From: a virus
IMG/VR virus record: IMGVR_UViG_3300031974_000430
Location: 1 to 36,092 of that record
Reading direction: 5' to 3' (one strand)
DNA length: 36,092 nt
A model generated the notes under the pieces. The model saw only the letters and a list, made by a program, of their open reading frames with translations, had not been told where the DNA came from and did no database searches. The translations under genes and the position numbers were made by a program. Each line of letters begins with the position of its first letter. Position 1 is the first letter of the stretch. Of the stretch, positions 1,696 to 36,054 are shown in pieces.

Positions 1696-2217
1696 TTAGC
1701 CAGCTATTTCTCTAACAGTTATCCAGCTACTTCCTCGTCTAGTTGTAGCTGCTGCCGCACGATTTACATACATAGGATAACTGGAATATCGTGATGCTAG
1801 TTGTACTTTATAAGTTACGTCAGAAGTTGTAGCAGGTTCATCAAGAATTTCTTCGGGCCATAGTAGCTGTTCATACGGGGCATTTCCGCTATCTGCACCA
1901 AATTGTATCCACCAATAATCACCAATAGCAGTGCTACTGTTGCCACCTATATTAGTGCCGTTCCGACTTACGCCGAAAAATCCACCTGCACTTGTCCACC
2001 AGTTATTACCAACTGTCAAAGCACAGGTTACTAAAAATTTGCTGCTACTACTTGATGGTGTAAGGGTAACACTAAGATCAGTCACGTCTACAAAACTTTG
2101 GCTACTTGTTGAAAAAGTATCTGTTTTTCTAGCTTGCTTTACCTGCAACACCTTCCCAAAGCCAAAGCCTGACCCGTCTGTCTTCTGGATTTCATCGACT
2201 TTGATTATGCTGGTCAT
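1696..2217 (-). CDS. Small tail-fibre-type protein (EIAG/EIAQ cassette)
   Basis: 173 residues. It starts MTSIIKVDEIQKTDGSGFGFGK, an adaptor-like opening, and proceeds through a Ser-rich beta segment (SVTLTPSSSSSKFLVTCALT) typical of a jelly-roll fibre tip. It ends SWITVREIAG, a variant of the EIAQ ending of its two upstream neighbours. It is a clear paralogue of the 2214-2750 and 2747-3259 products, which share the 'ITPKFQNSKI' and 'TTSAVTY' segments in diverged form. The start overlaps the upstream stop (ATGA). Its own stop is followed by AGGAGG ahead of the 1683 start. It is probably one of several interchangeable host-contact proteins. Confidence 0.75.
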   Translation of the reverse strand: MTSIIKVDEIQKTDGSGFGFGKVLQVKQARKTDTFSTSSQSFVDVTDLSVTLTPSSSSSKFLVTCALTVGNNWWTSAGGFFGVSRNGTNIGGNSSTAIGDYWWIQFGADSGNAPYEQLLWPEEILDEPATTSDVTYKVQLASRYSSYPMYVNRAAAATTRRGSSWITVREIAG

Positions 2218-2750
2218 TGTGCGATCTCCATTAGGGTTATGCAGCTACACATTTTCCTCCCCCCACCCGTGCCTTGATTAAAGTAGGCTGTTCCAGAATT
2301 AACACCCCACAAAATACCATATGTTACGGCACTTGTTGTGTTTGGTGTGTCTGTTCCTGAGTGTGAAAATGTTTGCCCATTAACAGTATAGCCTTGCGAC
2401 AAAAACATCTTGGACAATCCATTAGCGTTGTTTGAAGGGTTTAATTGAGATGGCACCCCAGAGTTAGCAAAATAAACTGGCGTTCCCGCTGGATCACGTG
2501 CAAAAATGAAAGAACCAGCATTTGAGCCACTCATTTCCAACTGCAAATCTACTGTCATAAGTATTTTGCTGTTTTGAAACTTTGGCGTTATAGAAAAATT
2601 AAGGTCATCTACACCAGAGTTTGTCCATGACGTGCTAGTTGTTGACCCTGAAGCATTACTAATCTTATTAACCACTTGCACCACATGCCCTGCTGCATGG
2701 ACTGCGTTACCCAAGTTAGGCTGGAGATTATCAACGTAAAGTGTACTCAT
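2214..2750 (-). CDS. Small tail-fibre-type protein (EIAQ cassette)
   Basis: 178 residues from the ATG at 2750, chosen because it overlaps the upstream stop as ATGA and has GGAG 9 bases ahead; a longer in-frame reading would run into the neighbour. The order is an MSTLYVDNLQPNLGN opening, a GHVVQVV linker, a Ser/Thr stretch, 'FSITPKFQNSKILMTVDLQL', a Gly/Asn-rich middle, 'NTTSAVTYGILWGV', and the ending CITLMEIAQ. The same series of blocks is found in the 2747-3259 product. A beta-sandwich head domain on a fibre is likely. The codons of the EIAQ ending contain the ribosome-binding site of the next gene. Confidence 0.75.
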   Translation of the reverse strand: MSTLYVDNLQPNLGNAVHAAGHVVQVVNKISNASGSTTSTSWTNSGVDDLNFSITPKFQNSKILMTVDLQLEMSGSNAGSFIFARDPAGTPVYFANSGVPSQLNPSNNANGLSKMFLSQGYTVNGQTFSHSGTDTPNTTSAVTYGILWGVNSGTAYFNQGTGGGRKMCSCITLMEIAQ

Positions 2751-3259
2751 TGTGCGATCTCCCATGCTACGCATTGTGTCGTATCATTAGAGCCAGGGGG
2801 CCAGTATACATTTCCACTAACAGCCTTATAGTAAACTGTATATGTTACCGCAGATGTTGTATTTGGTTCGTCAAAAACTGCTACAGTTGCAGGGGAATAA
2901 ACAGTGCCATTACCTACTTGCGCTTGAGAGACAGTTTCTAAGCTAGTTAAGCCTCGGTATATTGTATAAACACCCTGACCTGATGTGTATGAACCACCAA
3001 TGAATTGAACAAATATTTTACTGTTTGCAAACTTAGGTGTGATGGTAACATACACTCCACTACTTACAAAAGAAGTACTGGTAGTCCCTGATGACGTGGT
3101 TGTGTCAACTCTACTCGTCATTTGAACAACCTGCCCAGCACTCGGAACCAACGTCCCACCAGATGCATCCAACGTATGACCACTAGGAACAATAATCTTG
3201 TTTGCGTTGGACCCTGACGTTGGACCCTTCAGCGTTTGTACGATTAATTCACTAGCCAT
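2747..3259 (-). CDS. Small tail-fibre-type protein (EIAQ cassette)
   Basis: 170 residues. The N-terminus MASELIVQTLKGPTSG differs from the MSTL type, but the segment NKIIVPSGHTLDASGGT is a standard phage-fibre linker. The body (GVYVTITPKFANSKIFVQFI, then NTTSAVTYTVYYKAVSG) parallels the next two gene products in order and spacing, and the ending is CVAWEIAQ. TGG GAG ATC GCA CAA TGA gives both the last residues and the GGGAG and ATGA signals of the next start. It overlaps the 69-residue gene at 3259. Likely a receptor-binding or decoration subunit of the tail. Confidence 0.75.
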   Translation of the reverse strand: MASELIVQTLKGPTSGSNANKIIVPSGHTLDASGGTLVPSAGQVVQMTSRVDTTTSSGTTSTSFVSSGVYVTITPKFANSKIFVQFIGGSYTSGQGVYTIYRGLTSLETVSQAQVGNGTVYSPATVAVFDEPNTTSAVTYTVYYKAVSGNVYWPPGSNDTTQCVAWEIAQ

Positions 3260-5788: not shown

Positions 5789-8227
5789 CTATAAGCCTCC
5801 ATATCCCATCAAGCCGCCAAGGCGCTCGTTTCGTTTTTCTTTTTGATCGCGCAGGTAGTCAAACACGCCAAGCAAAGGCATGGCACCAAACGCAGCGAAT
5901 GTGGGTATGCCTTTTTCTGCCGCATTGCGAATAAACTCTGGGGTCAAGCGCAAGCCAGTGACATTTTCTACGCCAGTATCAGTTTGCACTCGCATCGGCT
6001 CTAGTTTAGCATTTTTATCAATGCGGCGAACTACATTTTGAAACCTTTTGGGAACGATTTCATCATAAAACGCCCCCTGACCTTCCTCTGACCCAAATGT
6101 CGCTTTCCGCACCATTTCTGAATTGGGCACCGCCATGACACCCTGCCCCTCTTTAATTGCATCGTAAATGTTGCGGCGAAGCATCATGTCCACCCACTTC
6201 GATGTATTATCCACATATGGCAAAGAAGTAGACAAGGTTCCACTTTCGACGCGCGTTCCTGTATCGGGGTCAATCCTGTTGAATTTGTCCCTTAACCCCA
6301 CGTTTTCCATTTCAGCCAGTTGCAAGTTCATTCTGGCGTCAAGGAAATCTTGCATCGGCTTTCGCATTGGAATAGGAACGTCCGACATCTTGATGTTTCC
6401 TGACATCAAATCTGACGCAAGTTCATCCATTACCCGCGTATCGCGGCCTCGGTTCTTCTTAATGCGGTTCTCATCAGCCCACGCTGAAAACAGGCTGTAT
6501 TCTTGTGACGACATATCTTTGTAATCGTCAAATTGCTTTAATGGCACAGAGGCCGATGGGTCATTACTCTGTAAAAGACCTGTAACCCAATTATTCTTTT
6601 CCCTCAAATGTGCATTATACGCATTCAAGTCCGCTTTTGAGAACATACTGTTGACGTCAAAACGATAGTCGTCATCGTGAATGAAACTTTCAGCCGCAAA
6701 CCTTGCTTTATTTGCCTCCGATCTATACGGATCAATAACCCGATTATAGTCTGAGCGCGCGACAAGTTCCTCGTATGTCTGCGGAAGTCGGCTGTGCTTT
6801 CGCATGATCTGACCAACATCAGACTGCAACTCGCCTACTAATAACGCGTTTTCATTTGTGGCAATTCCACTTTCATCCACAAGGGGGAATTTACCTGTCC
6901 GACTATGACCTATGATAGCATCAAATTGATTGTCGAAATGACTTGCATTTGGCAATAGTCCCGCGTCAATCTTCCCAGTTGGGTCTGTGTAACTGTAAAT
7001 CTTCTCTTGATAGTTTGTTGCGCCTTTGGGGAAATAGCCCGAATACTCTGTATCCCCAACATTCCCAACGTCATCTGGGTCACGGCCCAGATAATCAATC
7101 ATAAATTGCTCTGGATTGCGGTCAGCTTCATAATAAGCATTGTCGTATAGGCTATCTCTCGCCATCGCTTCTGCGTCATACTGCGTATCAACAATATAGC
7201 CCTCTGTGCGCAATCGCATTGAATTTTCCAAATCAATGTATTCGTCGTCATGGAAGTTCAGCAAGTCATCGACGCTCTTACCTGTACGCCTACTTAACTC
7301 GTCCAACATATCTGCATCTGCATCCCTGACGCGCATAAAGCGTACGTCTTGCTCTATCATATCTGGGATTATTTCATTGCGATATAGTTCGACCTCATGG
7401 TCAAAAACACGATCGATGTACTGCTCAACTAAGGCATCAGTGCTTGTATCGTCTACGCCCAACTTGCCAGACGCAGCAAGAACATTCTCATTAACCAAAT
7501 CAGTATTTTCAGACAGGTAATCTATGATTTCTTGCTTCGTGACCTTTTTGCCGCTGAAAACGCTATCTGCACCCGACCAAGACAGTTCATCTGCCTTGGC
7601 TCCACCCTTGTCCATCATCCACTTGCGCAACTGTTCATAAGTGCCTTTTTCTTGAGGCAGTTTTTCTGCTGCCTGCAAAGATGGGCTGTACATTCGCACC
7701 CGTGAACGGTTCTCGTTCTCTTGAAGCAGGGTTCTAAAGTCATCGTAACTGACAGCTTCCGCACCAACAGACTGTGGTTGGCCGCTTGGTCTAAAAGCAT
7801 CGAAAATGCCGCCAAGATCACCCTCTGCAAGCGAACGCCCCGCATACTGAACATCAGAAACAGCGTTGCGAACCATTGGCCCGATGACCTCGCCTGTCGG
7901 CGTGGCAAACATTTCCGTTAGCCCTGCTGGCGCTGCAAGATACCCTGCGCGAACCAAAGCTGCTGGGGCTAGTGACATTGCCATTTCGACGCCCATGTCC
8001 ACTGCTGCGCGCTTCCGCGCCTCTGCGGTAGCATCTGGATCAAACACAACAGACGCATCTTGCATTGCGTTACCCATTGCATTGACGGGGTTCATTTCGT
8101 TTACAAACTGACCCGCTGGACGCAAGTTAGGCGGCAGGAACCGCTCTAGGTTGAGATCGTCAACATATTCGTCCAGCATACGGCGGCGCTCTTGCCCGCC
8201 CATCGCAAAGAAATCAATTAAGTTCAT
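5789..8227 (-). CDS. Large conserved phage protein, possibly virion-associated
   Basis: 812 residues from ATG 8227, preferred over an upstream in-frame TTG because GGGGA lies 5 bases ahead. After an N-terminal alanine-rich, partly hydrophobic segment (about 75-120) comes 'LPQEKGTYEQLRKWMMDKGG', then 'AKADELSWSGAD' and 'KKVTKQEIIDYLSENTDLV', a block I recognise from large proteins common in marine phages but without known biochemistry. The middle is acidic and Tyr/Asp-rich; the C-terminus has a short hydrophobic stretch (GIPTFAAFGAMPLLGVFDYL). Position between small structural genes and the adaptor suggests an injected or internal virion protein. No catalytic motif could be identified. Confidence 0.75.
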   Translation of the reverse strand: MNLIDFFAMGGQERRRMLDEYVDDLNLERFLPPNLRPAGQFVNEMNPVNAMGNAMQDASVVFDPDATAEARKRAAVDMGVEMAMSLAPAALVRAGYLAAPAGLTEMFATPTGEVIGPMVRNAVSDVQYAGRSLAEGDLGGIFDAFRPSGQPQSVGAEAVSYDDFRTLLQENENRSRVRMYSPSLQAAEKLPQEKGTYEQLRKWMMDKGGAKADELSWSGADSVFSGKKVTKQEIIDYLSENTDLVNENVLAASGKLGVDDTSTDALVEQYIDRVFDHEVELYRNEIIPDMIEQDVRFMRVRDADADMLDELSRRTGKSVDDLLNFHDDEYIDLENSMRLRTEGYIVDTQYDAEAMARDSLYDNAYYEADRNPEQFMIDYLGRDPDDVGNVGDTEYSGYFPKGATNYQEKIYSYTDPTGKIDAGLLPNASHFDNQFDAIIGHSRTGKFPLVDESGIATNENALLVGELQSDVGQIMRKHSRLPQTYEELVARSDYNRVIDPYRSEANKARFAAESFIHDDDYRFDVNSMFSKADLNAYNAHLREKNNWVTGLLQSNDPSASVPLKQFDDYKDMSSQEYSLFSAWADENRIKKNRGRDTRVMDELASDLMSGNIKMSDVPIPMRKPMQDFLDARMNLQLAEMENVGLRDKFNRIDPDTGTRVESGTLSTSLPYVDNTSKWVDMMLRRNIYDAIKEGQGVMAVPNSEMVRKATFGSEEGQGAFYDEIVPKRFQNVVRRIDKNAKLEPMRVQTDTGVENVTGLRLTPEFIRNAAEKGIPTFAAFGAMPLLGVFDYLRDQKEKRNERLGGLMGYGGL

Positions 8228-8693
8228 CACGATCCCCAAATAAGTAAGTTAGCAAGCCTGACGCATATCCTCTACGCCGTGAAGGTGACTGAAATAGCGT
8301 TTGCGCGCCATCGGCGATCACCGCGCCAAGTTTGCCCATTTTGCCCATATCGTCATTTTGGTTAATTTCATGCAGCTTGTCGATAAAGTCCATACGACCT
8401 CGCTCGTAGCTGTGCGGATACATCAAGCCCCGACCAACGCCCTGACGCGGCCCATACTCACGCATCATGCGTTCCATGTACTCCCGCTGTCGAATGTCTC
8501 TGTCGTCAATCCCTAACTTTTCCAACTCTCGCAAAGCACGGGCAATCACATCGTCGCTGTAATAATAGCCCTCTGGGCCATCCTCGCGCAGACGGTATGC
8601 GTTGTATTCGTCTTCTGCCTCTCGCGCATACTTGTCGCGCATTGCGTTCATAAGCTGATCCATTAGCCCCTCACGGATTTCTTGCCGCGACAT
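8214..8693 (-). CDS. Hypothetical Arg/Glu-rich protein
   Basis: About 159 residues from ATG 8693 (MSRQEIREGLMDQLMNAMRD); an ATG two codons upstream at 8699 is possible but leaves only one base after the AAGG. Highly charged, helical, with Met-Arg-Glu-rich stretches (REYMERMMREYGPRQGVGRG) and a less charged C-terminus. It overlaps the downstream 812-residue gene by 14 bases and the upstream DUF6321-like gene by about 31 bases, so it belongs to the same transcript. No family is recognised. A virion assembly or packaging-accessory function is a guess from position only. Confidence 0.65.
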   Translation of the reverse strand: MSRQEIREGLMDQLMNAMRDKYAREAEDEYNAYRLREDGPEGYYYSDDVIARALRELEKLGIDDRDIRQREYMERMMREYGPRQGVGRGLMYPHSYERGRMDFIDKLHEINQNDDMGKMGKLGAVIADGAQTLFQSPSRRRGYASGLLTYLFGDRDELN

Positions 8694-15720: not shown

Positions 15721-16071
15721 CTAAAACGGTATTTCGTCGTCTATGCCTGCCATTGCTGGCTGTGGCTGTGATGTCTGTTCGTCCCGTGGCTTACCGCCAC
15801 CCATGAGCGACAGATCGGCTGCGCGGATCGACAGATATGTTTTACCGTTGTATTCACGCTGCTTTAGTTCACCGCTGACACAAACCTTTGTGCCTTTGGT
15901 CAGATACTGCGCCACTGCGCTGCGATGATAGGTGACGTCAAAAAACATCACCCCTTTGTTTTGTCCATAACCGTCGTCAACTGCGACAGAAAAGGTTGCA
16001 AACTGCCTGCCTTCGTTCTCTTGAACCTGACAGTCCTTGGTAAGACGCCCTGCGATTGTACATACTTTCAT
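15721..16071 (-). CDS. ssb: Single-stranded DNA-binding protein
   Basis: 116 residues. An OB-fold sequence (VCTIAGRLTKDCQVQENEGR, 'FATFSVAVDDG', 'MFFDVTYHRSAVAQYLTKGT', 'KVCVSGELKQREYNGKTYLS') is followed by a short Gln/Pro linker and the acidic tail DDEIPF, the tip that recruits partner proteins in bacterial SSBs. It coats single strands during replication and recombination. Start and upstream stop overlap as ATGA with GGAG in place. The partner annealing-type protein is encoded immediately upstream. Confidence 0.93.
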   Translation of the reverse strand: MKVCTIAGRLTKDCQVQENEGRQFATFSVAVDDGYGQNKGVMFFDVTYHRSAVAQYLTKGTKVCVSGELKQREYNGKTYLSIRAADLSLMGGGKPRDEQTSQPQPAMAGIDDEIPF

Positions 16072-16694
16072 ACCATTAACTCCACTTTACGTTTGTCATG
16101 CGCTTCGACCATGCGCTCGTACTGCGCTTCGGTCAAGTCGGGGCTGTTGATCAGCTTTTTGTACTTTGCTTCGGCTGTAGCAAAGCGCTGGGCGTCACAG
16201 TTTTCGTAGAACTGCAACATCGCATCGACACGATCTTCAAGCGGCATTTCCATCTTTGGTGCGCCTGTTGGCTTTGGTGCAACCTCTGATGCTTTGATCG
16301 CTGCCTCTTTGCGCTTCACGCCGTCCATTTCGTTGGCTGAAGCATACTGACCGCCGTGCATACCCATAGACGCCAGCGCGCGCCCGATTGCCGATGTTTC
16401 GCAAACCTCGACCGCTGACGTGCGCGTAATCTGTGATGATCCACGAATTTCTTCTGCCAAACCTGACCCGACGATAAAACCGTCTTTGTCTTTGACTGTG
16501 GCTTTGACCACGACAGTCTGACCGTCATTGTGGATGATGTCAGTGTCGATACCGTATTCGCCACCGAAGACCATGCGGAACGCCTCAACGCGCTTTGCAA
16601 CCTCTGTGTATTGCTTGCCGCCGCGCTGGGTGACGCCGTGGGACTTGTTCAAGTCCGCTACGACATCCATTGCTTGATGAAACTTATTGGTCAT
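16068..16694 (-). CDS. Putative single-strand annealing recombination protein (Rad52/ERF-like)
   Basis: 208 residues from ATG 16694, chosen because it overlaps the upstream stop and has GGGGAG 7 bases ahead. The core 'GGKQYTEVAKRVEAFRMVFG', beta strands with 'TVVVKATVKDKDGFIVGSGL', and 'TSAVEVCETSAIGRALASMG' then 'HGGQYASANEM' form a pattern I know from marine phage genomes, next to SSB. The C-E-T-S-A-I-G-R-A-L-A helix resembles the conserved helix of annealing proteins. The C-terminal third is a helical tail. The annealing role is inferred from this pattern and from SSB, NinB-like and RusA neighbours. Confidence 0.65.
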   Translation of the reverse strand: MTNKFHQAMDVVADLNKSHGVTQRGGKQYTEVAKRVEAFRMVFGGEYGIDTDIIHNDGQTVVVKATVKDKDGFIVGSGLAEEIRGSSQITRTSAVEVCETSAIGRALASMGMHGGQYASANEMDGVKRKEAAIKASEVAPKPTGAPKMEMPLEDRVDAMLQFYENCDAQRFATAEAKYKKLINSPDLTEAQYERMVEAHDKRKVELMV

Positions 16695-16860
16695 TGTAAT
16701 CTCCCCAAATTTTGTCGTGTTCTTCACACGCTGACTTTACGCCCTTATCAAGAGCGTCAATCATATCGCTAACTTGCTGGCTTGTCATGTTGCCAAACTT
16801 TTTGCTCATAGATTGCAAAACGTGCATCTTGATCGAAACTGGTGTTGGATGCTTGTGCAT
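16684..16860 (-). CDS. Small hypothetical protein, first in the recombination operon
   Basis: 58 residues from ATG 16860 (MHKHPTPVSIKMHVLQSMSK, then FGNMTSQQVSDMIDALDKGV). Helical with no recognised motif. GAAGGGAAAAAAT precedes the ATG, the early-gene ribosome-binding element. It is the first gene read leftward from the divergent control region, and its end overlaps the annealing-protein start. Confidence 0.65.
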   Translation of the reverse strand: MHKHPTPVSIKMHVLQSMSKKFGNMTSQQVSDMIDALDKGVKSACEEHDKIWGDYNDQ

Positions 16861-16950: not shown

Positions 16951-17142
16951 ATGGACTGCCACAAGGAAACGATGCTGACGTTCGATACTTTAAAATGCGA
17001 ACTAGCAAAGCACAACCTGCGCAAAGTCGCGCGGGAAACTGACCTACACTACAACACGGTGTATAGGTTTATGAACACAGAAAAAGACCCGAAGTACTCG
17101 ACAATGAAAGCGCTGTCGGATTATGTAGAGGGTGCGCTATAA
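16951..17142 (+). CDS. Small Cro/CI-type HTH regulator
   Basis: 63 residues from ATG 16951; the ATG at 16972 (56 residues, AAGGA close by) is an alternative. 'LRKVARETDLHYNTVYRFMN' at about 23-42 is a helix-turn-helix: first helix KVARET, turn, recognition helix YNTVYRF. 'YSTMKALSDYVEGAL' closes the small fold, as in minimal phage repressors. It probably controls the divergent promoters beside it. GGGG in the palindrome at 16931-16946 doubles as its ribosome-binding site, which would allow autoregulation. Confidence 0.75.
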   Translation: MDCHKETMLTFDTLKCELAKHNLRKVARETDLHYNTVYRFMNTEKDPKYSTMKALSDYVEGAL

Positions 17143-17291
17143 GAAAGAACCGCCCCATTTGGGACGGCTCTAACATGAAGGGAAACGTTCAGCATGAACG
17201 CAATTCAAATGCTGAACAAACAAACTGCCTAAACCAAGCACTTGCCCTTGCTTGGTAACACGGCACAACATATTGGGCAAGGAGTTTTAAA
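17143..17291 (+). promoter_or_regulatory. Structured leader of the replication operon
   Basis: 149 bases with four elements in order: an imperfect hairpin (17147-17170, CCG/CGG and CCC/GGG arms, loop ATTT); a 12-codon ORF (17194-17232) overlapping a strong hairpin, GTTCAGCAT (17187-17195) with ATGCTGAAC (17209-17217), extended by GAA/TTC; stem ACCAAGCA (17233-17240) with TGCTTGGT (17249-17256); and loop CTTGCCC (17241-17247) complementary to GGGCAAG (17275-17281), which runs into the AAGGAG ribosome-binding site of the replication gene. The last two form a possible pseudoknot that would hide that site. Confidence 0.5.
17194..17232 (+). CDS. Possible leader peptide (12 residues)
   Basis: ATG at 17194, reading MNAIQMLNKQTA and TAA at 17230-17232. 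The early-gene element GAAGGGAAA stands at 17177-17185, a somewhat long but usable distance. The stop codon directly abuts the first base of the downstream stem, so a ribosome terminating here would cover that stem. That placement, rather than the peptide sequence, is the reason for calling it. Confidence 0.4.
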   Translation: MNAIQMLNKQTA

Positions 17292-17945
17292 ATGTCGCAT
17301 TACATGACAGCGTTAGCGATGAAACAAAAAGGCTTGAAGCCAGCAACCAAAATTGTGCTGTATTGGTTAGCCGATTGCCACAATCAAGAAACAGGCCAAT
17401 GCTTCCCCAGCATCAAACACCTTGCAAATGTCTGCGAAATGTCGCGCAGATCAGTTGAGGGTCATTTGACAGTTTTAGAACAGCTAGGATTAATTAAACG
17501 CTTTAACCAATTTCGTGACCGTGGGGGCAAAACCTCTAACAGTTACGTCTTAGAATTAACGGGAACTACTGAGCATAATAGTTCGACGGACACCGATGCG
17601 CAAAATCTGCGCATGGTATGCGAAAAATCTGCGCATGGGGATACGCAAAATCTGCGCATGAATAACCTTGGAATAAATAACCTTGGAAAAGAAACTAATA
17701 TATCATCATCTGACGATGACGGTGTTGATTACTACTTTGACCAATTATGGGAAGAATACCCACGCAAGGTTGGTAAAGCACAGGCCAAGAAAGCGTTTAA
17801 GACAGCTTCTAAGAAAATAAACTTCTATGACCTATTGCCAAAGTACATGTCATATGTTTTAACCCTAGAGGGTAAAGAAACTCAGTTTATACCGCATCTA
17901 GCTACATGGCTAAACGGTGAACGCTGGAACGATGAAGGGAAATAA
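17292..17945 (+). CDS. Replication initiator (lambda O-like layout, winged-helix N-terminus)
   Basis: 217 residues. Residues 1-90 form an HTH_36-type winged helix: 'GLKPATKIVLYWLADCHNQE', 'CFPSIKHLANVCEMSRRSVE', 'LEQLGLIKRFNQFRDRGGK'. A polar linker (91-145) follows, and then 'YFDQLWEEYPRKVGKAQAKK' and 'HLATWLNGERWNDEGK', a C-terminal block common in phage replication proteins. The linker is encoded by the iteron array at 17596-17661, so the protein probably binds an origin inside its own gene, as lambda O does. AAGGAG precedes the start in a structured leader. Next gene starts 2 bases after its stop. Confidence 0.85.
   Translation: MSHYMTALAMKQKGLKPATKIVLYWLADCHNQETGQCFPSIKHLANVCEMSRRSVEGHLTVLEQLGLIKRFNQFRDRGGKTSNSYVLELTGTTEHNSSTDTDAQNLRMVCEKSAHGDTQNLRMNNLGINNLGKETNISSSDDDGVDYYFDQLWEEYPRKVGKAQAKKAFKTASKKINFYDLLPKYMSYVLTLEGKETQFIPHLATWLNGERWNDEGK
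17596..17710. other. Predicted replication origin: three iterons plus AT-rich segment
   Basis: Three 21-bp repeats at 17596-17616, 17618-17638 and 17641-17661 share the pattern ATGCGCAAAATCTGCGCAT (two substitutions at most), each an inverted repeat of TGCGCA about AAATC. Starts are 22 and 23 bases apart. Immediately after, two 13-base copies of AATAACCTTGGAA (17661-17673 and 17676-17688) lead into an AT-rich stretch to about 17710, a candidate unwinding element. Repeats 1 and 3 are read in the same frame (QNLRM), repeat 2 in another (CEKSAHG), so conservation is at DNA level. Confidence 0.7.
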
Positions 17946-17947
17946 CA

Positions 17948-18439
17948 ATGACTTTTGACGAACGCATGGCGCAAATTCGCAGTGAAATTACAGGGATGTT
18001 GGCAACCTATGCCGTTCCCAAGCATCTAGATACCGAAAACAAGGTACGCCAAGAGATTGAAGGCTTGGCGCGCATGGTGAACCACAAGCTGCCGAACGAC
18101 ACAACGCCTGATCATATCCGTGGCACGTTTGAACGCGCATCTATGAAGCTGAAAAGCGCGCACACGTCACGCACATGGCCAACAGGCAAAGACATCGACG
18201 CTGCTGTCACAAAATCTATGACAACAACCATGTCATCATTGCCTGCAAACAAAGGCCAGTGGAAGCCTGACACGCTGGCAATCAATGCGCGCCGCATCAA
18301 GGCGGGTGAACCTGTAGGTGAAACATACATCACTGGCAAGCTGGCAGAACGCATGGTTGCGCAAGGTCTAGTCACTGAAGAAGAACTTGCGCCGTATCTA
18401 GTTTACCTAGACGCGCACAAACGCAGCATAAACGGGTAA
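17948..18439 (+). CDS. Putative replication partner protein (helicase-loader position)
   Basis: 163 residues. No Walker motif, so not a DnaC-type ATPase. Helical N-terminus (MTFDERMAQIRSEITGMLAT, 'YAVPKHLDTENKVRQEIEGL'), then a segment rich in basic and Thr residues (TFERASMKLKSAHTSRTWPT, GKDIDAAVTKSM) and a C-terminal helix pair. By position, directly behind an O-like initiator in the same transcript, it could play the part of lambda P in recruiting the host helicase; the sequence does not prove it. GAAGGGAAA precedes the start. Confidence 0.6.
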   Translation: MTFDERMAQIRSEITGMLATYAVPKHLDTENKVRQEIEGLARMVNHKLPNDTTPDHIRGTFERASMKLKSAHTSRTWPTGKDIDAAVTKSMTTTMSSLPANKGQWKPDTLAINARRIKAGEPVGETYITGKLAERMVAQGLVTEEELAPYLVYLDAHKRSING

Positions 18440-18530
18440 TCGTGTGGGCGGCGCTATAGTGTCGGGATAAGCTGGGGAACCAACAAAAACGATGGTATCA
18501 ACCGCCCACCGCGACAAAATATCATAGAAG
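18440..18530 (+). ncRNA. Possible structured RNA element before 18543
   Basis: GTGGGCGG (18444-18451) and CCGCCCAC (18502-18509) are perfect complements, extended by CG/CG past one bulged base. The 50-base interior can form small inner stems: CGC/GTG around TATA, and GATA (18466-18469) with TATC (18496-18499) enclosing TGG-GGAA-CCA. The element sits between two plus-strand genes, 25 bases ahead of the GAAGGGAAA ribosome-binding element. No known RNA family is recognised. Confidence 0.35.
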
Positions 18531-18542
18531 GGAAACACCGCA

Positions 18543-18779
18543 ATGGAATTTTTTACACTGCTATACATAGAATACGCACTGCGCGGTATTGACATCGAAA
18601 CATATTTGATTTTGCCCGATTACGAAGCATGTCAGATAGCCATACGCGACAACGAAAATATGCCGATGTACTTTAACGCAGATAGCGATGTCGATATGTA
18701 CTGTATACGCACCGACACGCTATCCAGATCAATACGACCTAAACTTAGACCAAAAGTTCGTAGTGAGGGGCATCTATAA
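18543..18779 (+). CDS. Small hypothetical early protein with SIRPKLRP motif
   Basis: 78 residues: MEFFTLLYIEYALRGIDIET, 'YLILPDYEACQIAIRDNENM', 'SDVDMYCIRTDTLSRSIRPK', ending LRPKVRSEGHL. One Cys pair, acidic middle, basic tail. The form (Tyr-rich, single C-x-x-A-I element, MYCI before the basic tail) is familiar from unannotated marine phage proteins; no function known. The tail motif SIRPKLRP also occurs in the virion-type protein at 8875-9903. Its 3' end overlaps the endolysin gene head-on by 35 bases. Confidence 0.65.
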   Translation: MEFFTLLYIEYALRGIDIETYLILPDYEACQIAIRDNENMPMYFNADSDVDMYCIRTDTLSRSIRPKLRPKVRSEGHL

Positions 18780-35288: not shown

Positions 35289-35695
35289 TGTGCAATTCTC
35301 CATGCGTTTCTAAATGACCGATCCGATGGGATCATTTCAACAGGGACGATCTTCATAATCGTTCTGTTTCCTTTGTAGTCCCGCCATACAGCAGGGTCTA
35401 TGTCTTTCATTACCAGATACTCTATCGCTTCTTCCTCAGTCATAGGGCCGATAGGTTCTGCGTATGGGTGTTCCTTTGGCTGTCCGTCAGGCACCAAACG
35501 ATCACGCTGATAAGTGTCAATAGGTGGCAAGATGTCACCCTCTAGTGCAGCAGCCATCCAGTTAGGATCAGGGACAAGCACCTTGGCAGGTTCGTCTGGT
35601 GTGGCAGGGTCCTCGAACAGCACACGATACTTAGACTGCACTGGCTCTAACCGTGACTTAGCTTCTAGTAGGCGTTCCCATAGATGCTTGGTCAT
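35285..35695 (-). CDS. Tail-fibre accessory protein
   Basis: 136 residues: 'MTKHLWERLLEAKSRLEPVQ', 'DPNWMAAALEGDILPPIDTY', 'PIGPMTEEEAIEYLVMKDID' and the end 'VEMIPSDRSFRNAWRIAQ'. The final segment encodes both the D-R-S-F-R-N-A-W motif shared with its downstream neighbour and an I-A-Q ending that forms the next gene's start signal. No enzyme motif. Likely tail-fibre assembly or attachment. Confidence 0.65.
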   Translation of the reverse strand: MTKHLWERLLEAKSRLEPVQSKYRVLFEDPATPDEPAKVLVPDPNWMAAALEGDILPPIDTYQRDRLVPDGQPKEHPYAEPIGPMTEEEAIEYLVMKDIDPAVWRDYKGNRTIMKIVPVEMIPSDRSFRNAWRIAQ

Positions 35696-36054
35696 GCTAA
35701 GTCTCCTATGGCTTTCATTGTATGCACTCGATCTTCATAGACATCATTCCAAGTCAAAATTGCCATAGGTGACGTACTAGCATCTTTTGTATAGTTGAAC
35801 CCATTACCTGAGAATATACGACCAACCACATCAACAGAGCCTGAAACCCCATAGTCTCCAGAACTAAAACTGCTAGTAAAACTATAAGAATAACGCCCTG
35901 TATTAGTATCTGTTACAGAAGACACGTTCAAACTATCAGTAATGGTTGTTGTGGATGAGCCTAACACCCAAGCCTTAGCCGACCCATTTAGGACATAGCT
36001 TGTGCCTACTGTATCCACTCCGTCTGTAATATTAGAAACATTAAGAGTTGACAT
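35692..36054 (-). CDS. Small tail-fibre/receptor-binding-type protein (GDLA cassette)
   Basis: 120 residues. It opens MSTLNVSNITDGVDTVGTSY, has the 'GSAKAWVLGSSTTTITDSLN' block shared with the 76-459 and 456-827 proteins, a Ser/Tyr-rich body and the ending KAIGDLA. The last codons contain GGAGAC and ATGA for the next gene. GGGGG stands about 7 bases ahead of its own ATG. A third member of the GDLA series, on the far side of the window join. Confidence 0.75.
   Translation of the reverse strand: MSTLNVSNITDGVDTVGTSYVLNGSAKAWVLGSSTTTITDSLNVSSVTDTNTGRYSYSFTSSFSSGDYGVSGSVDVVGRIFSGNGFNYTKDASTSPMAILTWNDVYEDRVHTMKAIGDLA

Follow-up and report, generated by a model that had tools for sequence, protein, structure and literature searches.

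The locus considered here raises the question of why a phage should place three copies of a palindromic repeat (iterons) within the codons of what is, by profile, its own replication initiator gene. The gene is found in a single virus record of 36,092 bases (IMG/VR record IMGVR_UViG_3300031974_000430), the whole of which constitutes the window analyzed here. We propose that the iteron array is very probably the replication origin of the phage, lodged inside the gene of its initiator, and that the system is of the lambda type with a divergent initiator; all the support for an origin is comparative. The features at the center of this proposal are the following.

17292 to 17945, plus strand: replication initiator gene, 217 amino acids (PF13730, PHROG 270, AlphaFold2 model)
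17595 to 17615, plus strand: iteron 1, GATGCGCAAAATCTGCGCATG, palindrome center 17605, encoding DAQNLRM
17617 to 17637, plus strand: iteron 2, TATGCGAAAAATCTGCGCATG, palindrome center 17627, encoding CEKSAHG (read VCEKSAHG) in another frame
17640 to 17660, plus strand: iteron 3, GATACGCAAAATCTGCGCATG, palindrome center 17650, encoding DTQNLRM

The protein product matches the Pfam profile PF13730 (HTH_36) with an E value of 1e-14 and, over its full length (residues 1 to 215), the profile of PHROG 270, annotated as “replication initiation protein,” with an E value of 2.9e-41; by the profiles of two libraries, it is a predicted replication initiator. In the AlphaFold2 model, residues 3 to 87 form a winged-helix domain with the recognition helix at 52 to 64, and a helical C-terminal domain occupies residues 142 to 208. 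Between these lies a linker (approximately residues 92 to 141) that is predicted to be disordered, its predicted local distance difference test (pLDDT) values being mostly below 50, and this disorder would leave its codons free to carry sites. It is in these linker codons that the three 21-bp iterons are found, with spacings of 22 and 23 bp and a core palindrome ATGCGCA-N5-TGCGCAT, in which 8, 7, and 7 of the 9 pairs are formed in copies 1, 2, and 3, respectively. This agrees with the original prediction, made from the sequence of the window, except that the first repeat, which had been started at 17596, begins at 17595 when the flanking G is counted. Translation likewise bears out that copies 1 and 3 encode QNLRM and that copy 2 is read in a different frame. 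The three copies together score 57 of 63, a value reached by none of 1,000 synonymous recodings of the whole gene, which averaged 38.6 and peaked at 51. Further, the window contains 4 occurrences of the palindrome with no more than two mismatches, versus 0.35 expected from dinucleotide shuffles (none of 100 shuffles reached 4). Given the different frame of copy 2 and these recoding scores, it is therefore the DNA that is conserved.

The same holds beyond the window. Viral contigs, covered by two protein searches and a pair of DNA-pattern scans, furnished 107 distinct full-length relatives (the matches of a further contig scan, mostly C terminal, were set aside), in 99 of which the linker carries a three-copy array exceeding what protein-preserving recoding allows, i.e., at most 1 of 200 synonymous recodings gave an array as strong (P ≤ 0.01). 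Thus, the claim of selection on the DNA stands in both the window and its relatives. The spacing is nearly fixed: among 65 nonredundant arrays it is 22+23 in 42 and 23+23 in 17, i.e., one or the other in 59, spacings that cause the copies to be read in different frames; all copies share one frame only in the 3 arrays with 21+24 spacing. What fills the slots varies, with about a dozen different palindromes, including ATGCGCAAAATCTGCGCAT, TGGCAGAATCTGCCA, GTCGCAAAATGCGAC, GGCGCAAAATGCGCC, GGAAAATATTTCC, GTTCGGAATGCGAAC, TGAATGACGTTCA, and others. A linker that retains its protein sequence while losing the nucleotide repeats was sought among these relatives, as an outcome that would contradict selection on the DNA, and was not found; rather, the reverse is seen, with the linker peptide and frame varying and the three-copy palindromic array persisting. 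Two related initiators, SfV orf39 and that of a Vibrio phage, also bear linker arrays of their own.

If the initiator reads the iterons, then the diversity of the palindromes should be matched in its recognition helix. We compared the two in 58 representatives (partial Mantel tests with the other protein segments controlled and 999 permutations; the relatives designated L017, L156, L179 to L181, L186, L243, and L245 were left out because the palindrome center was not placed automatically). Distances between iterons correlate with distances between residues 50 to 60 (partial Mantel r of 0.645, P = 0.001, with the largest permuted value at 0.146), whereas the correlations for the remaining segments are 0.11 (residues 61 to 90, the wing), 0.07 (residues 1 to 38), −0.03 (residues 39 to 49), and 0.005 (C-terminal domain). 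Once the linker residues encoded by the iterons themselves are set aside, the best single positions are E56, R53, S51, G57, and S54. This covariation is the pattern expected if the recognition helix of the initiator reads the iterons, and supports such a role. An association of this kind could also arise from mere linkage in one recombination block, given that the helix and the iterons are only about 110 to 200 bp apart in a gene that is clearly mosaic. Under linkage alone, though, the intervening residues 61 to 90, which are closer to the iterons on the DNA than residues 50 to 60, should correlate best, yet they reach only 0.11 versus 0.645; we hence consider it quite unlikely that linkage rather than recognition accounts for the association. 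The mosaicism is itself informative. L003, L014, L015, and L017 have C-terminal domains that are 99 to 100% identical but differ in their helices and iterons; conversely, L019 shares the iteron type of the window and 73% identity in the helix, with only 44% identity in the C-terminal domain. From such mismatches, it follows that the helix and iterons are exchanged together, as a single cassette of specificity, and recombination junctions fall in or near the iteron linker. We also observed that L031 belongs with L014, L015, and L017 in having a C-terminal domain 99 to 100% identical to that of L003 along with a different N-terminal part, helix, and iterons, and that L014 and L031 share only 18% identity over residues 1 to 38.

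Directly downstream of the array, the original prediction had pointed to an AT-rich stretch with two copies of AATAACCTTGGAA, and these are indeed present in one of the least stable parts of the window.

17660 to 17709: candidate unwinding region, from nearest-neighbor stability
17661 to 17673, plus strand: copy 1 of AATAACCTTGGAA, with AACC at 17664 to 17667; conserved at the DNA level in relatives
17676 to 17688, plus strand: copy 2 of AATAACCTTGGAA, with AACC at 17679 to 17682; conserved at the DNA level in relatives

The first of these is the second least stable nonoverlapping 50-bp stretch of the window, with only 0.05% of all 50-bp positions being less stable. The N-L-G units encoded here are spelled exactly as AACCTTGGA in 48 of 52 cases among the protein-selected relatives, as opposed to 2% expected from codon usage. 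Two further scans widened the set for the AACC motif to SfV-like and other initiators. With nonredundant tails and expectations from synonymous recoding, AACC occurs 86 times versus 44.8 expected in 38 tails of the marine set (z = 8.4), 96 times versus 42.5 in 31 SfV-like tails (z = 11.5), and 12 times versus 6.7 in a third small group (z = 2.8), these z values overstating the certainty because related sequences are not independent. The excess is absent from the part coding for the winged helix (29 versus 32 and 28 versus 35 expected), and the complementary GGTT is enriched little or not at all on the strand bearing AACC, which makes AACC strand specific. A stronger argument than the z values comes from reading frames: the marine set translates AACC for the most part as N-L (AAC CTT) and the SfV-like set as E-P (GAA CCA), so that conservation of the DNA, like that of the iterons, extends across frames. 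The copies are mostly 12 to 15 nucleotides apart in the marine set and 17 and 12 apart in the SfV-like set. AACC repeats were seen directly 3′ of the iterons in the tails of several relatives (e.g., L031, L229, L265, L266, and L268) and are also present in an Arthrobacter phage and EBPR podovirus 2; no such array follows the iterons of lambda (J02459).

As to what the AACC array does, we tentatively suggest, at somewhat less than even odds, that its most likely role is that of a strand-specific element acting after duplex opening, namely, a single-strand binding or helicase-loading mark. A functional parallel might be drawn for this array only with the DnaD recognition element (DRE) of Bacillus subtilis oriC, a TnnT motif recurring along a single strand where the DNA unwinds, with a winged-helix initiation protein as its reader (PMC10201434), in that a short motif is repeated on one strand. 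The AACC array was rejected as a DRE proper, TnnT being absent from AACCTTGGAA and its complement. With a similar degree of reserve, we postulate that the AACC array could be an undescribed strand-specific origin element common to phage initiators of the HTH_36 type, which stays constant while iterons and helix diversify, and that the linked helix-iteron series might constitute a code, provided by nature, for the specificity of interchangeable phage origins. No paper on the origins of this initiator family or on an AACC array was found in the open-access literature.

Apart from an origin, palindromes bound by a winged helix would be equally at home as operators through which the protein regulates the transcription of its own gene, the origin being elsewhere, and binding by its own helix is predicted just as well on this account. 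We nevertheless regard it as quite improbable: there are no copies of the iteron in the promoter region upstream of the initiator gene, several intragenic copies followed by an unstable stretch better fit an origin, and the protein matches replication families. That the repeats merely encode a short peptide repeat of the linker, with the DNA similarity as a by-product, is recommended by the identical peptide from copies 1 and 3, but has already been refuted by the shifted frame of copy 2 and the failure of all 1,000 recodings to reach the score, and also sits poorly with a linker predicted to be disordered in which relatives keep the DNA layout as the peptide changes; we give it next to no chance. 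A role for the palindromes in RNA, as transcript hairpins or a terminator (one prediction places a terminator-like stem at 17649 to 17628 of the minus strand), can be dismissed with the same assurance because such calls are near chance in number (4 versus 2.6) and RNA structure leaves the covariation with a DNA-reading helix and the 22/23 spacing unexplained.

Returning to the array as an origin, profiles, DNA-level selection, helix-iteron covariation, and the unstable neighboring stretch together favor the claim, put forward in the original prediction, that an origin lies inside the initiator gene. We envisage that the N-terminal winged helix, probably as a dimer, would insert its recognition helix into each of the three iterons; the initiator bound to these sites, which are about two helical turns apart, would build a nucleoprotein complex; the adjoining AT-rich stretch would then melt; and the C-terminal domain, along with a partner, may bring in the replicative helicase and replisome of the host. 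The candidate for that partner is the gene immediately downstream.

17948 to 18439, plus strand: partner gene, 163 amino acids, all-helical; helicase-loader candidate by position only

In 82 of the 107 relatives, the initiator gene is immediately followed by a homologue of this partner; the model of the partner is all-helical with a mean pLDDT of 87. It remains a candidate helicase loader by position only, and several results weigh against the proposal as a whole. A Foldseek search of the partner against the PDB gave nothing below an E value of 0.5; Pfam and PHROG scans of its family yielded nothing convincing; and homology to SfV orf40, Vibrio phage p48, or lambda P, each considered in turn, was rejected for want of a significant match. 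GC skew, suggested earlier as a check, was computed and locates no origin: it is negative nearly throughout and reaches zero only at the four plus-strand genes, thus tracking gene orientation. Moreover, five of the 107 relatives (L032 to L036) lack a linker array altogether. The only significant match of the partner among predicted viral structures is an unnamed protein. In the four array-less relatives whose next gene could be read (L032, L033, L035, and L036), that gene encodes a different protein of 565 amino acids, by eye resembling a zinc-finger primase, which suggests a different initiation route.

An origin within the initiator gene is an architecture already known from lambda and from oriL of SPP1. 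The origins of lambda and the Shiga toxin (Stx) phages lie within the initiator gene (PMC6022878; PMC7466680), and in lambda gene O, as in 933W and P27, palindromic iterons occupy the middle of that gene in several frames, as here. The likeness to lambda drawn in the original prediction is therefore fair: its four iterons, as annotated in J02459, fall in three frames of O (0, 2, 2, and 1) with spacings of 20, 24, and 23, and its AT-rich stretch lies on the same side of the iterons. The window differs in having three iterons as opposed to four in lambda and six in the Stx phages, in an unrelated iteron sequence, and in a different C-terminal domain and partner gene. The two initiators share only the broad N-terminal PHROGs 678 and 345; PHROG 277, the lambda O family, is not among the matches of the window initiator, and direct comparison with lambda O is not significant. 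In function, the window initiator would thus resemble lambda O while falling outside the lambda O family. SPP1 oriL is inside gene 38, in a scheme of initiator, loader, and helicase (PMC6316719), but SPP1 also possesses an origin lying outside gene 38 and encodes its own helicase, whereas no helicase family was detected among the large open reading frames (ORFs) searched in the window. A parallel within the same protein family is offered by SfV orf39 and related enterobacterial prophage initiators, which match PHROG 270 and have a palindromic linker array with a downstream AACC array; unlike the window, they have more copies in some cases, spacings of mostly 21/24 and hence in frame, AACC in the E-P rather than the N-L frame, and a different downstream gene. 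No published origin for initiators of the SfV orf39 type was found in the open-access literature.

Apparent novelties are the initiator family, a helix-iteron series that is both large and clear, a spacing held almost constant at 22/23, and the AACC array. The locus provides a candidate origin for mostly uncultured marine phages. With most of the protein scaffold held in common, the roughly dozen naturally occurring initiator-iteron pairs would suffice for testing a recognition code and predicting replicon compatibility, and the AACC array constitutes a concrete proposal for the strand polarity of helicase loading at lambda-type origins. Polymerase families, too, went undetected in the large ORFs searched, of which two (816 and 342 amino acids) have no match at all, so host replication enzymes are likely to be used, as has been proposed for an HTVC010P-type phage (PMC10504331).

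The initiator belongs to a plus-strand cluster (16951 to 18779) comprising a Cro-like regulator, the initiator, the 163-amino-acid partner, and a small gene, the remainder of the window consisting mostly of minus-strand genes.

16951 to 17142, plus strand: Cro-like helix-turn-helix regulator gene, upstream of the initiator (PHROG 18104, transcriptional regulator, E value of 2e-11)

The terminase shares 45 to 50% identity with its counterparts in Methylophilales phage Venkman and HTVC010P-type pelagiphages. In HTVC010P, Venkman, and Rhodoferax phage P26218, which are near the window phage by terminase, no iterons were found in the candidate genes tested, and the phage of the window does not seem to have its replication module in common with them.

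Among the other minus-strand genes, the 816-amino-acid ORF (5789 to 8239) lies in the structural region and has no Pfam or PHROG match. The gene at 16068 to 16727 (219 amino acids), which adjoins that of the single-stranded DNA-binding protein, matches only PHROGs without an assigned function, and its motif TSAIGRALASMG by eye resembles phage single-strand annealing proteins. Finally, several neighboring ORFs of 120 to 190 amino acids that look alike by eye occupy both ends of the record on the minus strand (76 to 827, 1696 to 3259, and 35692 to 36054), with starts such as MSTLKVTNI, MSTLNVSNI, and MSTLYVDNL, and are possibly tandem tail-protein paralogues.
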